From Actinomycetes bacterium (GTDB lineage Bacteria; Actinomycetota; Thermoleophilia; BMS3ABIN01), in assembly GCA_021787475.1 (NCBI GenBank), contig JAJYLW010000013.1, positions 1-64,000 of the forward strand: a stretch of 64,000 bases of DNA, in the 5' to 3' direction. Shown here piece after piece: positions 18,686-32,698 of the stretch (within the stretch, counting starts at the first letter, position 1; each line of letters begins with the position of its first letter). A program made the translations under genes and the position numbers. A model generated the notes under the pieces. That model was not told where the DNA came from, searched no databases, and worked only from the letters and a program-made list of their open reading frames with translations.

Positions 18686-21100
18686 GTGCTCCGCCCGCCG
18701 GAATCCGGCCAGATGACAGCCTGGCTGCGGCGTCTCAGCGTGCAGGCCTGCGGGCGCTACCTGGGAGCGCCCGCCGCCTTTGTCCTTGCTTACCTTTCCG
18801 GCCTGTCATTCAGCCTGCTGCGCTCGTCGTGGCGGCAGGCAGCCATTGGCGGCGCTGCCGCCGCCTGCCTGCTGCTGGCCACCATGCGCATGCGAAAAAA
18901 GCCGGTTCTGCTGCTCGCTTTCGCCTGCCTGGGGCTGATGATCGGCTCGGCACGCATGCAGATGCTTTCGGCCAGCCTGCTCAGAGACAGGTACATGGGA
19001 AAGCGCATCCACGCCGATGTCACCATTGTTGATTCACCAAATCAAAAAGGAACAATGCTGGGCTTTACCGCTCGCGTTGACAGGGTGAAGCTGTCGCGTT
19101 CCTGGCAGAATGACGGTGAAGATATCCGCATAGAGATAATGTGCCATGACAAATGCGCTTTGGACCAGAGTCCGCCGCTTCGGCAGGGAGAGCAGTTGAA
19201 CCTTACCGGCCGCGTCCAGCCGGCGCCCTCCACACCGGGAGCGGATTTTGACTATGGCGCTTACCTGAAACAGAGGGGAATAAACGCGGTCCTGGTTTCA
19301 CAGCCGGGTGCGGTCAAGCTTCTGCGGCAAAGGCGCGGCGGCTGGGGCGGCCTGGTGGACGCCGTCCGCCGGCGCGCCTTTGCCAGCCTTGAGCAGGGCG
19401 GCTGGGGCACGGCCGGCGCTGTCCTGAAAGGGATGGTTCTAGGAGACACCAGCCAGGTTTCCGATGACGTCATCTCTGATTTCCGCGATTCGGGGCTGCT
19501 GCACCTGCTGGCTGTATCCGGTGAAAATGTGGTCCTGCTTGGCTTTATCGTCTCGCTGATCTGCCGTTTGCTGCTGCTGCCGCGCATGGCCGCAACAGTC
19601 ATCGCCATGTTTGTGCTATGCGTATATGTTCCCCTGACCGGAGCCGGCCCCTCAATTGTCCGCGCCGGCGTTGTCGGCTCCCTCGGGCTGGCGGCGACGC
19701 TACTGGGCCGCCGCGGCAACCGGTATCATTTCCTCGCCCTGGCGGCGGCGGTCATCCTGTCCCTGAATCCTTTCAGCCTGCTGGATCCTGGCTTCCAGCT
19801 ATCGTTTGCCGCCGTGCTGGCCATCTTCATGCTTGCCCCCATTATCAGGGAACGGCTTCGGCTGCTGCCGCGGACGCTTGCAGATGTCATCTCGGTGTCC
19901 ACATCGGCGGGCCTGGCGACGGCGCCGATAACCCTGATCCACTTCCGTCAGATATCGTTGCTGACAGTGCCCGCCAATATTGCCGTGGACTGGCTGGCGG
20001 GCCCGGTGATGCTGATGGGAACGCTTTCGATTGCTACCGGCCTGTTTTCATTAGATTTAAGCTGGCTGCTCAACGGCGCCGGCGCCGCCTGCACGGGCTA
20101 TGTCATTGCCGTTGCCGGTTTCTTTGCCGGCTTGCCGGGGGCGGTTTATAGCGGCGGCCCGCCCCCGGCAATTGCGACGATCTCTTACTACGCCCTGCTT
20201 GGCGGCGCGGTCACCGCGGCTAAAAAGGGCGTCATGAAGCCATTTGTTTCCCGGTTTATGCGGCGGCGCCGAGAGTTTGCCGCGCTGGCGCTGGTTGCCC
20301 TGGCGCTGACGCTGGGCCTGGCCTGGCTCAGCCACAGAAATACCGTGGCCAGTGCGCCGGAAAGCTTTCGCGTCTCTTTCTTCGATGTCGGCCAGGGAGA
20401 TTCGGCGCTCATCCAGGTGCCACATGGGGCAAGCATTCTCGTTGACGGCGGCCCCGGCTCTTCCGTCTTGGACCGCCTTTCCCAGAGCGGCGCCGCCAGC
20501 CTGGATGCTGTCGTCCTTACCCACAGCCACGCCGACCACCTGGCCGGGCTGATCGAGGTCCTGAAGCACTACCATGTCGGCACCGTTTACGACGGCGGCT
20601 CGCCCTCGTCCAGCCCCCTGTACCAGGATTTTCTCAAGGAAATAAAAGCGAGGGAGGTTGCGTACCACGTGGTCCGCCGCGGTCAGAAGCTCGCTTACGA
20701 CGAGCTGACGCTGGCTGTTTACAATCCCGGTGACTCCCAGCGGCCGGACGACCCCAACGCAAACTCGGTCGTCCTTGTGGCAAGCTACCACGGCCTTGAT
20801 ATACTCATGCCCGGAGATGCGGAAGGGGACGTCCTGAAAACACTCAGCCTTCCTCACGTGGACGTCTACAAAATCGGACACCACGGCAGCCGCGACCAGT
20901 CGATGCAGCAGGTGCTGGAGCGCATCCGGCCGGCCGTCGCCGTCGTGTCGGTTGGCGCCAACAATGATTACGGCCATCCGGCCGCCGAGACGATGGCAAA
21001 GCTGAAGGCGTCCGGAGCACGCATCTTCAGGACCGACCGCCAGGGCACTGTCCGTGTGTCGCTGACGGGAAACGGCATCGAGGTAAGGACCGACCGTTGA
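18686..21100 (+). CDS. comEC: ComEC/Rec2 DNA internalisation protein
   Basis: Competence domain GLLHLLAVSGENVVLLG; beta-lactamase-fold FFDVGQGDSALIQVP...THSHADHLAG. Confidence 0.95.
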   Translation: MLRPPESGQMTAWLRRLSVQACGRYLGAPAAFVLAYLSGLSFSLLRSSWRQAAIGGAAAACLLLATMRMRKKPVLLLAFACLGLMIGSARMQMLSASLLRDRYMGKRIHADVTIVDSPNQKGTMLGFTARVDRVKLSRSWQNDGEDIRIEIMCHDKCALDQSPPLRQGEQLNLTGRVQPAPSTPGADFDYGAYLKQRGINAVLVSQPGAVKLLRQRRGGWGGLVDAVRRRAFASLEQGGWGTAGAVLKGMVLGDTSQVSDDVISDFRDSGLLHLLAVSGENVVLLGFIVSLICRLLLLPRMAATVIAMFVLCVYVPLTGAGPSIVRAGVVGSLGLAATLLGRRGNRYHFLALAAAVILSLNPFSLLDPGFQLSFAAVLAIFMLAPIIRERLRLLPRTLADVISVSTSAGLATAPITLIHFRQISLLTVPANIAVDWLAGPVMLMGTLSIATGLFSLDLSWLLNGAGAACTGYVIAVAGFFAGLPGAVYSGGPPPAIATISYYALLGGAVTAAKKGVMKPFVSRFMRRRREFAALALVALALTLGLAWLSHRNTVASAPESFRVSFFDVGQGDSALIQVPHGASILVDGGPGSSVLDRLSQSGAASLDAVVLTHSHADHLAGLIEVLKHYHVGTVYDGGSPSSSPLYQDFLKEIKAREVAYHVVRRGQKLAYDELTLAVYNPGDSQRPDDPNANSVVLVASYHGLDILMPGDAEGDVLKTLSLPHVDVYKIGHHGSRDQSMQQVLERIRPAVAVVSVGANNDYGHPAAETMAKLKASGARIFRTDRQGTVRVSLTGNGIEVRTDR

Positions 21101-22110
21101 GCCCAAAAACAAGGAAGAAAGAGCCGTTAAAACCAGCGTATTTGATCACCGGCAGCGATGATTCCAAGGTTGAAAAGGCGGTGCGCCGGTTGAAACGGCG
21201 TGTCATTGCCGATTCTGGCACCGACCTGAACATCGATGTCTTTGACGCCCGCGAGCATAAGGCACCGGAAGTGCTCCAGGCGGCCGGCACGCTGCCGTTT
21301 GGGGCCGGCCCCCGTCTGGTGCTGGTGATCGAGGCCAGCGCCTGGAGCAAGGCCGACAAGGACGCCGTCGCGACTTTTCTCGTCGACACACCCGCCACTT
21401 CTGTTCTGGCAATTATCGGGAGCGGCATCAAGAAAAACGAGGCCCTCTTCAAAGCAGTGGCGGCCGCCGGCGAGGTGCTTGCCTACGAAGCGCCGCGGGG
21501 GAGCGGATTGACCCGCTGGACCCGGGAGCAGGCCGGTAGGCTTGGATTGAAACTGGGAACGGCGGAGGCGCAGCGGCTGGTCTTTCAGGCAGGTTCGGAC
21601 CAGCGGTCAATCCTCAGCGAGCTGGAAAAATTGTCGGCCCGTCTGGGACCGGGTCCGGTGCGCATTGATGATATTGAGAACCTGTGCTGGTCTTCCCCGG
21701 AAACAAAAATCTGGGACCTCACCGACGCGCTGGGGGCCGGCGACAGGGGCGCAGTGTTTCGCGGGCTGGAGGCCCTGCTGGGCGGCGGCATGGCTCCCGT
21801 GGCAATCTTTGCTTCCATTGCCAGGCACGTGCGCAACCTGACGCAGGTTGCTGAGGCTGCCGCCAGGGAGGAGGACCCGGTCCAGGCGGCCCTGGCTCTG
21901 GGACAGAAGCCCTACCCGGCCAGGAAGCTGGCTCAGCAGTGCCGCAATTTCAGCACCGGCCAACTGCGGCAGGTCGTCCGCATCCTGGTGGAGGCCGACG
22001 CTGATTTAAAGGGCGGGAAAGACATCCGCCCGGACCTGGCGCTGGAAAGCACAGTTGCCCGAATCATGGATCTTGCGGCGCCGCCGGCCGCGTCCGCTCC
22101 AGGTCGATAA
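21097..22110 (+). CDS. holA: DNA polymerase III delta subunit
   Basis: HolA-like architecture; 4-nt overlap with comEC. Confidence 0.85.
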   Translation: MSPKTRKKEPLKPAYLITGSDDSKVEKAVRRLKRRVIADSGTDLNIDVFDAREHKAPEVLQAAGTLPFGAGPRLVLVIEASAWSKADKDAVATFLVDTPATSVLAIIGSGIKKNEALFKAVAAAGEVLAYEAPRGSGLTRWTREQAGRLGLKLGTAEAQRLVFQAGSDQRSILSELEKLSARLGPGPVRIDDIENLCWSSPETKIWDLTDALGAGDRGAVFRGLEALLGGGMAPVAIFASIARHVRNLTQVAEAAAREEDPVQAALALGQKPYPARKLAQQCRNFSTGQLRQVVRILVEADADLKGGKDIRPDLALESTVARIMDLAAPPAASAPGR

Positions 22111-26222: not shown

Positions 26223-26846
26223 TTACCCGCCCGCGGCTGCGGCCCGCTCGCGCCAGTGGCTCTGGTTCAGCTCGCCGCTGCCCGGTTCGCACATCCACCA
26301 GGGGACGTAGCGCCAGGCCGACCGCAGCTGACGTTCGATGGACTTGCAGTCCGGCTCAAAACGGGACACCAGCCGCCAGAAACGCGGCGAATGGTTCAAT
26401 TCGACAGTGTGGCAAAGTTCGTGCACGAACACGTACTCGACAAGCAGCGCCGGCACAAACAGCAGCTTCTCGTTGATGCTGACGGTGTGACGGGCGGAGC
26501 AGCTGGCCCAGCGGGTGCGCTGCTTTCTAAGAGCGGCGCGTCCAAACGGAAGACACAGCTCCCGGCTGATCTGACCCAGCCACGGCGGAAGATGGGCGCG
26601 CGCTTTCCTTGAAGTCCACCGCCGCAAAGCGTGCACGCACTCCTGCTGGCCGATATTTCCGGAAATTATGAGGCTGCCTTCCTGCTCGCGCGCCGAGGTG
26701 CGCGCTGACTCGCCGGGGTGGTAAAAGACATCCAGTTCCTCGCCGATTGCGCGCAGGGTGATAACGTCAGGCAGAGGAAAGGGAGGGACGGGGAGGTTAC
26801 TCTTCTTTCTTTTCCGGCTTCTTGCGCGGGGCAGCTTTCTTTGCAT
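26223..26846 (-). CDS. M48/DUF45 (YgjP-like) metallopeptidase
   Basis: VEYVFVHELCHTVELNHSPRFW (HExxH); ATG at 26846 overlaps rpsT 3' end. Confidence 0.75.
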   Translation of the reverse strand: MQRKLPRARSRKRKKSNLPVPPFPLPDVITLRAIGEELDVFYHPGESARTSAREQEGSLIISGNIGQQECVHALRRWTSRKARAHLPPWLGQISRELCLPFGRAALRKQRTRWASCSARHTVSINEKLLFVPALLVEYVFVHELCHTVELNHSPRFWRLVSRFEPDCKSIERQLRSAWRYVPWWMCEPGSGELNQSHWRERAAAAGG

Positions 26847-27609
26847 CGGGCTTCTTGCCGCTGTCTGTGGCTTTTGCTGAGCTTTTCTTCGCGGCGGCGG
26901 GCTTTGCCTCCTGCTTTTTCCCGAGCCCCGTCTTCGTCTCCGGATCATCAGCGGCAGGGGCGCTGTTCTCACCAGCCGGCGCCGGACCTTCCTTCTCAGG
27001 CTCCGCCTCAGCCTCAGCGGCCGCTTCCGCTGCCGGCTTCTTCCCGGCAGCCTTCTCTTCAACATCCGGCGCCTCTGCCTGCGCTTGAGGAGACGGCTCT
27101 GTTTGTGTTTCCGGCTCTTTTTCTGCTTCTGCTTCGGAAGCGCCGGGAGCCTCCGCGGCGGTCCCGACTGTCTCTTCTTTTTCAGCTTTGGGCACTACTG
27201 GGGTCCCGGCCTTGCCCGCTTCACCCGCCGCTGGTTTCTCGCGGCCGGCGGATTTTTTTGCCTGCCTCGCCCCGGAGCGTCCGGCGCGCCGATCGGCCTT
27301 GCTTTCGCCCTTTGGCTTGGTCGCGGCCGGCCCCGCTGTTTTCTTCACGCCCGGGGCCAGATCGACAATGGCCGTCACGCGGGATTTCTTGCGGGCGGCG
27401 CTGTTGGCGTGCAGCATCCCGCGCCCAGCGGCCCTGTCAATCAATGAGATCAGCTCCAGCGCCATTTGCCGGCCCTTTTCCTCATCCTCCCGGGCAGCAA
27501 CGGCCAAGGATTTAAACATCGTCTTGATCCTCGATTTGTATCTGAGGTTCTCGAGGCGCTCGCGCCTGGCGATTTTTACGCGTTTGCGTTGCTGCTTTAT
27601 GTTTGCCAA
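26797..27609 (-). CDS. rpsT: 30S ribosomal protein bS20 with long low-complexity C-terminal extension
   Basis: MANIKQQRKRVKIARRERLENLRYKSRIKTMFKSL...GMLHANSAARKKSRV followed by ~185-aa K/A/E/P-rich tail. Confidence 0.9.
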   Translation of the reverse strand: MANIKQQRKRVKIARRERLENLRYKSRIKTMFKSLAVAAREDEEKGRQMALELISLIDRAAGRGMLHANSAARKKSRVTAIVDLAPGVKKTAGPAATKPKGESKADRRAGRSGARQAKKSAGREKPAAGEAGKAGTPVVPKAEKEETVGTAAEAPGASEAEAEKEPETQTEPSPQAQAEAPDVEEKAAGKKPAAEAAAEAEAEPEKEGPAPAGENSAPAADDPETKTGLGKKQEAKPAAAKKSSAKATDSGKKPDAKKAAPRKKPEKKEE

Positions 27610-30595: not shown

Positions 30596-31105
30596 AAGAA
30601 GGGAAACGCCCTAGAACCGGACTTTGGACCTTGGACATTTGAATAACAAGATCGAGGCAATCCCAGAGTTCATTCCTGAGCGAACTGGAAGATCAGCTAA
30701 AAGAAACAGAAGGCTCCGGGTGATCTAATGCCTCAAGCCTTGGGACCCACACTCAGCTTGACAAGGTCATAATTGCTTAAGAGCGGATTCTTTTACCGCC
30801 TCGATCGCCTTGCGAAGCTTCCCTTGGCCCGGCCTGCGACCTCCCGGAGCTCTAAAAGTGATATCGTCAGAAACTGCGCATCTTTAAAGAGAAGGAAAAA
30901 TTTCTTCCGCAAACAGCAGTGAGCCCCAAGTGAGGATTGCTGACGGCCTGAACGAGATGTCAATCCGACAATCTGCCGGAAAAAGTTTCAGCCCATCTCT
31001 TTGCCTTGGGACTCACTTATATTATTGCGCGCCCGGCAATTAATAAACATTTTCGGCGATGGCATTCCAAACGCCTGCGGACATCCGGAACCTCAAGGAG
31101 ACAAT

Positions 31106-32698
31106 TTGCCACCTGTACCAATATCTGAGGCGGAAGCAACGCCGGTTGGCCGCCGTCTCGCCACGGCGGCGCTGATAGTCATTGCCGCCACGGCGGCGTC
31201 ACGGGGATTCGGCTACGTGCGCGAGATTGCCGCTGCCGCCTTCTTTGGCGCCGGCGCCGACAAGAGCGCTTTTGACGTTGCTTTCCTAGTCCCGTCGACG
31301 GTGCAGATCCTGGTGGCCCAGGCAGCGCTGAGCGCGGCGCTGATACCGGTTTTTGCGGGTCTGCTGGAAAAGGGTGAGCGGCAAGAGGCATGGCTGGTGG
31401 CCAGGACCGTCTTCACCCTGATGATGCTTGTGCTTGGCGTCGTAGTCGCCGTCTGCATCATATTTGCTCCCTCGATCATGCCTCTCTTCGCCCCGGGATA
31501 CCGCCACGACACCGTCATGATGGCAAAGATTGTCTACATGTCGCGGCTGCTATTCCCAACTGTTTTGCTGCTCGCGGCTACAGGCGTCTTTATTTCGGTG
31601 CTCAATTCCTTTGATCATTTCACATTGCCGGCCATTGCGCCAATTGTCTGGAACGTTGTCATCCTGCTGGCAATTTTTTTTGGCTCAGGCCGGCTTGGCA
31701 TCGACGCCCTTGCCTGGGGCGTGCTCCTGGGAACGCTGGCGCAACTGGCGATGCAAATGCCGGCGCTGACCGGCCGCGGCGGGCGACTCGGCTGGGGCCT
31801 TTCCTGGCGCAACCCGTACGTGCGGCAGGTCGGGGCCCTGATGCTTCCGGTAAGCCTCAGCCTCGGACTGATAAACCTGAACGGCGTCATTGACATTCAG
31901 TTTGCTTCATTCCTGGGGCAGGGAGGAGTGGCGGCAATGAACTATGCCTTTCGCCTTTATCAGTTGCCCGAGTCACTTTTTGCCATCGCCGTGGGGACGG
32001 TTCTGTTCCCAACCCTGTCCAAGCTGGTGGCGCGCAAGGATTATGACAGCTTCAGGGACACCGTTTCCCTGGGGCTGCGCGCCATTTTCTTTATCCTCAT
32101 TCCGGCAACGGCGTTCATGCTGGCAATGTCAACGCCGCTGGTCCGACTTGCCTACCAACACGGCCAGTTCGGCGCCGGCAGCACCGCGCTGGTTGCCTCT
32201 TCCCTGTTTTTCTTTGCGTTTGGCAGCGCCTTCAGTGGCGGCAGCGCCCTGCTTACCCGGGGCTTTTTCTCGCTGAGCCGGCCCTGGATTCCCACAACCG
32301 TGGCAGTTTTCAATCTTGGAGTCAATGCCTTCCTTAACTGGCTTTTTATCAAGCCGTTCGGCCTGGGAGGCATACCACTGTCCACCTCGGTGGTGTCTGC
32401 CTGCACCTTCTTTGTGCTTCTGATCCTGCTCAGAAGGGAACTGGGAAGAATAAACGGCCGCGCGGTTTTAAGGTCGGCGCTTGCCGCGGTTGCGCTCTCC
32501 ATTGCGGCAGTCCTGGGCGGGTTCGCTGCCTGGAGGATGCTCGACGGCGCGCTGGGGCGGAGCCTTTCCGCGCAAATGGTCTCCCTGTTTGCCGGCATCC
32601 TGGCCGTGACGGCTATTTACCTTGTTCTCGCACGGCTGCACAAAATGCCTGAGCTGCAACTGGCCGGTCTGCTGCGACGCAGTAATAATAAAACGTGA
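31106..32698 (+). CDS. murJ: Lipid II flippase MurJ/MviN
   Basis: SRGFGYVREIAAAAFFGAGADKSAFDVAF, MviN-like topology; TTG at 31106 with RBS AAGGAG. Confidence 0.9.
   Translation: MPPVPISEAEATPVGRRLATAALIVIAATAASRGFGYVREIAAAAFFGAGADKSAFDVAFLVPSTVQILVAQAALSAALIPVFAGLLEKGERQEAWLVARTVFTLMMLVLGVVVAVCIIFAPSIMPLFAPGYRHDTVMMAKIVYMSRLLFPTVLLLAATGVFISVLNSFDHFTLPAIAPIVWNVVILLAIFFGSGRLGIDALAWGVLLGTLAQLAMQMPALTGRGGRLGWGLSWRNPYVRQVGALMLPVSLSLGLINLNGVIDIQFASFLGQGGVAAMNYAFRLYQLPESLFAIAVGTVLFPTLSKLVARKDYDSFRDTVSLGLRAIFFILIPATAFMLAMSTPLVRLAYQHGQFGAGSTALVASSLFFFAFGSAFSGGSALLTRGFFSLSRPWIPTTVAVFNLGVNAFLNWLFIKPFGLGGIPLSTSVVSACTFFVLLILLRRELGRINGRAVLRSALAAVALSIAAVLGGFAAWRMLDGALGRSLSAQMVSLFAGILAVTAIYLVLARLHKMPELQLAGLLRRSNNKT

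Follow-up and report, generated by a model that had tools for sequence, protein, structure and literature searches.

The ribosomal protein bS20 encoded in a 64,000-nucleotide stretch of DNA from an actinobacterium of the class Thermoleophilia (the window) carries a long C-terminal tail that is genuine, in frame with the bS20 domain and present throughout the window's family. The rpsT open reading frame (27609..26797, minus strand; 270 aa) has a TTG start with a GGAG ribosome-binding site upstream and ends at a TAA stop, and it is the sole bS20 gene in its genome, which gave one match. Most likely, in our judgment, though we hold this with about as much doubt as belief, the product works as bS20, and its C-terminal extension, specific to the lineage, stays on the small subunit permanently; a conserved helix of the tail would dock on rRNA near the bS20 site and a polyampholyte arm would be exposed to solvent.

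Over its first 83 residues (27361..27609, minus strand), starting from the TTG codon, the protein is a canonical bS20. The Pfam family PF01649 covers residues 2-82 with an E-value of 5.8e-19 and 69 bits (curated cut-off 29.5 bits), and the NCBIfam equivalog TIGR00029 covers residues 1-80 with 67.3 bits (cut-off 33 bits). AlphaFold, run on an alignment of 31 sequences, predicts helices at residues 4-41, 43-63 and 68-82 with pLDDT between 87 and 98, giving a three-helix bundle fold. The bS20 chains of solved ribosomes share this full-length core but lack the additional C-terminal residues and their conserved helix; no solved bS20 chain with such a tail was found, the longest matched being 106 aa. 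Judged from its sequence, the window's ORF encodes an ordinary bS20 in its core, with novelty limited to the C-terminal extension. The first-pass annotation had described the first ~83 residues as ordinary bS20, and the two models, both scoring above their cut-offs, bear this out.

The locus is also broadly the usual one. In other families of the class, rpsT adjoins homologues of the window ORFs at 30944-32695 and 20968-22107, which we take, from their position and from what is known of the rpsT neighbourhood, to be lepA and holA. Homologues in these two positions flank the window's rpsT at a distance, so that the typical placement between lepA and holA is broadly kept. Members of the window's family have a divergent UPF0182 gene adjacent to rpsT, with a gene for a HEAT-repeat protein close by, and in the window's genus rpsT is followed by a gene for a YgjP-like metallopeptidase (26223-26846, minus strand). 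There is no ATG, GTG or TTG between the rpsT stop and the conserved N-terminus of this YgjP-like protein. Because the nearest in-frame ATG, at 26846, falls within the bS20 tail, this gene and rpsT may share about 50 bases.

A tail of this kind could in principle arise from a frameshift, an assembly error or stop codon readthrough fusing a short rpsT to downstream sequence, and the first-pass annotation named close relatives that terminate at the junction as the finding that would refute a genuine tail. No such relative was found: the tail is present in all 18 genomes of the family that have a bS20 gene, out of 19 genomes in total, with no bS20 match in G009 (86% complete). Seventeen of these genes read through to a stop, at 165-286 aa, one of them (L015) containing a run of N, while G008 has rpsT in two parts on separate contigs (L018 and L237), with the tail visible in the second part. 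The bS20 proteins read from other families of the same class measure 85-101 aa, except in one genus described below; many matches in this survey were judged by open-frame size alone and others were unlisted, so it may miss rare tails. Since all 18 relatives carry the tail and, that genus apart, the bS20 proteins read from the rest of the class have 85-101 aa, the tail is neither a frameshift nor a readthrough product. The frame is kept in 18 genomes, a conserved motif occurs in every tail read through it, and no analysis turned up anything in favour of an artefact, an explanation to which we assign practically no probability. The ORF of the window continues in frame past bS20 to residue 270, as first proposed, and the frame is intact across the family.

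The tail spans residues 84-270, which by the boundary used here is 187 residues rather than the ~185 initially given. Residues 87-270 are 17% K, 24% A, 15% E and 11% P, with F, W, Y and C absent, and no Pfam family matches beyond residue 83 at E <= 1. A linker containing Gly, Pro and Thr (residues 84-103; 27301..27360, minus strand), with pLDDT of about 56-61 and a conserved SK at its end in the family alignment, leads into a conserved basic helix (residues 104-123; 27241..27300, minus strand) with pLDDT of about 80. Beyond it lie an acidic, Ala/Glu/Pro-rich arm (residues 124-225; 26935..27240, minus strand), with pLDDT of 40-60 and a net charge per residue down to -0.25, and a second Lys/Ala-rich segment (residues 226-270 and the stop codon; 26797..26934, minus strand), at +0.2 to +0.3, distinguished by the alignment and the charge profile. 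The first-pass annotation had called for a disorder prediction, and AlphaFold returns one: the linker region (~83-103) is uncertain, the helix is predicted at 104-123, and everything beyond is disordered.

Among 16 aligned family members, residues S103, K104, R108, R111 and K119 do not vary, and the four basic ones (K104, R108, R111 and K119) share a single helix face (p 0.025 relative to randomly placed positions within the helix). Charge in the window's tail is segregated into positive, negative and positive blocks, an arrangement equalled in blockiness by 3 of 500 residue shuffles, and the net charge is about +3 over 187 residues. Because its charges are segregated and its net charge is only about +3, the tail is a polyampholyte and not uniformly basic. 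The original description of a low-complexity tail, basic, then Glu/Ala/Pro-rich, then Lys/Ala-rich, agrees with the charge blocks but overlooked a conserved segment within the first ~40 residues.

Conservation differs along the tail. Across the family the distal arm differs widely in both length and sequence, retaining composition and charge blocks instead of sequence. Of 12 family members tested, 11 (all but L004) have tails with stronger charge blocks than their shuffled versions. The third, positive block occurs in the closest relatives; its Lys/Ala-rich segment (226-270) is shared with L002 and partly with L004, and is absent from most of the family. By the Nei-Gojobori method, dN/dS is about 0.02-0.14 in the core and, where dS is measurable, mostly about 0.04-0.5 in the proximal and distal tail, with synonymous change saturated for several pairs. 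pN is below pS in nearly all pairs, and the close pair L010/L011 has a proximal-tail dN/dS above 1 with a wide interval. These values suggest that the tail is translated and constrained, under purifying selection that is looser than that on the core.

The bS20 site lies at the foot of the 30S body. In known ribosomes, bS20 contacts 16S rRNA at the 5' domain and h44 (PMC10931766). In the ribosome-resident reading that we favour, the core would first bind this usual site (5' domain and helix 44), the linker would then allow the basic helix to rest on nearby rRNA, and the arm would remain in solvent as a polyampholyte brush. Such a brush may alter the surface charge and spacing of the ribosome, affecting crowding and subunit or polysome contacts, or may alternatively screen the basic protein before assembly. 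The earlier suggestion that the tail binds rRNA is accordingly narrowed to the conserved basic helix, for which it is plausible. We also considered compensation for an altered rRNA at the bS20 site and set it aside: partial 16S sequences from three family members, reaching to about position 750-900 and not covering helix 44, have a 5' domain of ordinary lengths with no unusual insertion. This result also counts against the proposed docking of the helix, since these sequences offer no extra 5'-domain element for the tail to contact.

The tail might instead act before bS20 reaches the ribosome. As an assembly aid, the acidic arm would fold back over the basic core and helix until the protein meets rRNA, which would keep unbound bS20 in solution or limit autoregulation; in the ribosome the arm would be displaced. 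The charge segregation with its acidic distal part fits this idea, as does the role of bS20 as a primary rRNA binder (PMC10931766). The start codon may also bear on it: the TTG of the window's gene (27607-27609, minus strand) is found in 17 of 18 family members, compared with 3 of 42 from the rest of the class, a hint that synthesis is held back. A review notes that an rpsT with a UUG start is uncommon except in some gammaproteobacterial families (PMC10931766). However, the UUG link is a correlation inside one clade, the AlphaFold model predicts no interaction, and the tails of L001, L002 and L004 are near neutral or positive overall. We regard an assembly aid as improbable.

At least four further actinobacterial families also have a tailed bS20, with tails of differing sequence. 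In f31, a family of a Coriobacteriia-like class that is probably Eggerthellaceae, all 21 genomes have a tail, and bS20 is 158-180 aa. AlphaFold predicts a core, a linker and a helix at residues 107-158. This tail resembles the window's in its linker of about 20 residues, its basic helix opening with K-x3-[RK]-x2-R and its Ala/Glu-rich end, but its helix is far longer and it has little disordered arm. Genus g66 of family f8, in the same class as the window, has a bS20 of 160-178 aa with a different tail (L115, L116, L117, L166 and L167); three genomes of genus g326 in f82 have 150-157 aa and a Lys-rich tail; and Lys-rich tails are also found in f17 (three genomes) and f60 (one genome), with a bS20 of 148-179 aa. 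All four groups share with the window a Lys/Ala-rich C-terminal tail on the same protein but differ from it in sequence (KKPAAKK, KKAPAKK, K/T/S-rich).

A single origin for all of these tails was considered, and profile comparisons with column-shuffled controls gave nothing decisive. The most suggestive pair is the window's family and f31, whose tail profiles score 14.0 with hhalign against a shuffle mean of 9.6 and maximum of 15.2; the similarity is not significant, with 1 of the 60 column-shuffled controls scoring as high. K-x3-[RK]-x2-R lies near the helix start in both, as a motif picked after the sequences were seen. The g66, g326 and f17 tails, the others entered in the comparison, have no detectable relation to the window's tail, and common ancestry was not established by the profiles for any two tails. 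Family labels and differing sequences, used here in place of a species tree, suggest that the gains were independent. One further proposal, which we put forward as clearly less probable than not, is that the bS20 C-terminus is a repeated attachment point, at which at least five actinobacterial lineages would have independently added a basic or mixed-charge arm, two of them with a helix at the same extra rRNA site, creating a new, lineage-specific protein element at the 30S foot with a tuning role in assembly or in contacts between ribosomes.

The first-pass annotation had likened the tail to histone H1, and a DNA- or nucleoid-binding tail would give bS20 a second, extraribosomal role. The Lys/Ala-rich end of the window's protein and the strongly basic K/T/S/A tails of f17 lend this some colour, but the likeness is one of composition: the tail has no Pfam match at E <= 1, linker-histone and histone-like models included, its net charge is close to zero in the window's protein and does not rise above zero in most relatives, where it is nil or negative, and the acidic arm would disfavour DNA. 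We consider a histone-like role very unlikely.

The main rival to the ribosome-resident extension is that the tail is mostly non-adaptive, with low-complexity coding sequence tolerated where the ends of ribosomal proteins face solvent, in lineages whose genomes are prone to K/A/E/P-rich repeats, and with composition alone under weak selection. Other ribosomal proteins of the same ribosomes, named by eye and by Pfam searches from stretches of the genomes, bear on this. In the window's genome, uL4 (L102:17098-18132, minus strand) has a K/E/A-rich N-terminal addition of well over 100 residues, acidic then basic, and uL3 (L102:18156-18974, minus strand) contains an internal K/E/A-rich insert, about 60 residues long. 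In the 11 family genomes that were examined, the uL4 addition occurs in all readable genes except those of G008 and G009 (the G004 gene was not parsed, and its 334-aa open frame suggests an addition), and the uL3 insert is missing in G006, G008 and G009. Because other ribosomal proteins gained K/A/E-rich additions, part of the bS20 tail may be non-specific lineage drift, and the strong variability of the distal arm and the repeated gain of differing bS20 tails point the same way. A trend toward tails on all ribosomal proteins was rejected, since bL17, at about 120 aa, and bS16, at about 80-90 aa, have normal lengths without tails in the window's family. That these two proteins grew no tails also weighs against non-adaptive growth, as do the invariant basic residues in the helix, a dN/dS below 1 in most comparisons, and the retention of the bS20 tail in 18 of 18 genomes, when some genomes lack the uL4 or uL3 addition, which makes it the most constant of several additions. 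We judge tolerated growth a real possibility, clearly less likely than the ribosome-resident extension. Two further proteins of the window's genome carry additions: a SecE-like protein (L103:17513-17959, minus strand) is extended at its N-terminus by Lys/Ala-rich sequence, and RNA polymerase alpha (L102:3141-4205, minus strand) has an Ala/Glu-rich insert in its linker.

Long terminal extensions of ribosomal proteins, often disordered and gained lineage by lineage as here, have been reviewed together with histone tails (PMC11764897); that review does not mention bS20, and our search of the open-access literature, with subscription journals outside its scope, found no paper describing bS20 tails. 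Because the tail is family-wide and different tails arose elsewhere, we regard it as a real addition to the ribosome, with a testable function. Bacterial ribosomal proteins are commonly viewed as almost fixed components. The tail makes bS20 more than three times as long, persists throughout a whole family and has counterparts of different sequence elsewhere, which implies that large additions can be accommodated at the 30S foot. Should f31 be Eggerthellaceae, its culturable gut species would open such a tail to direct structural and genetic test.
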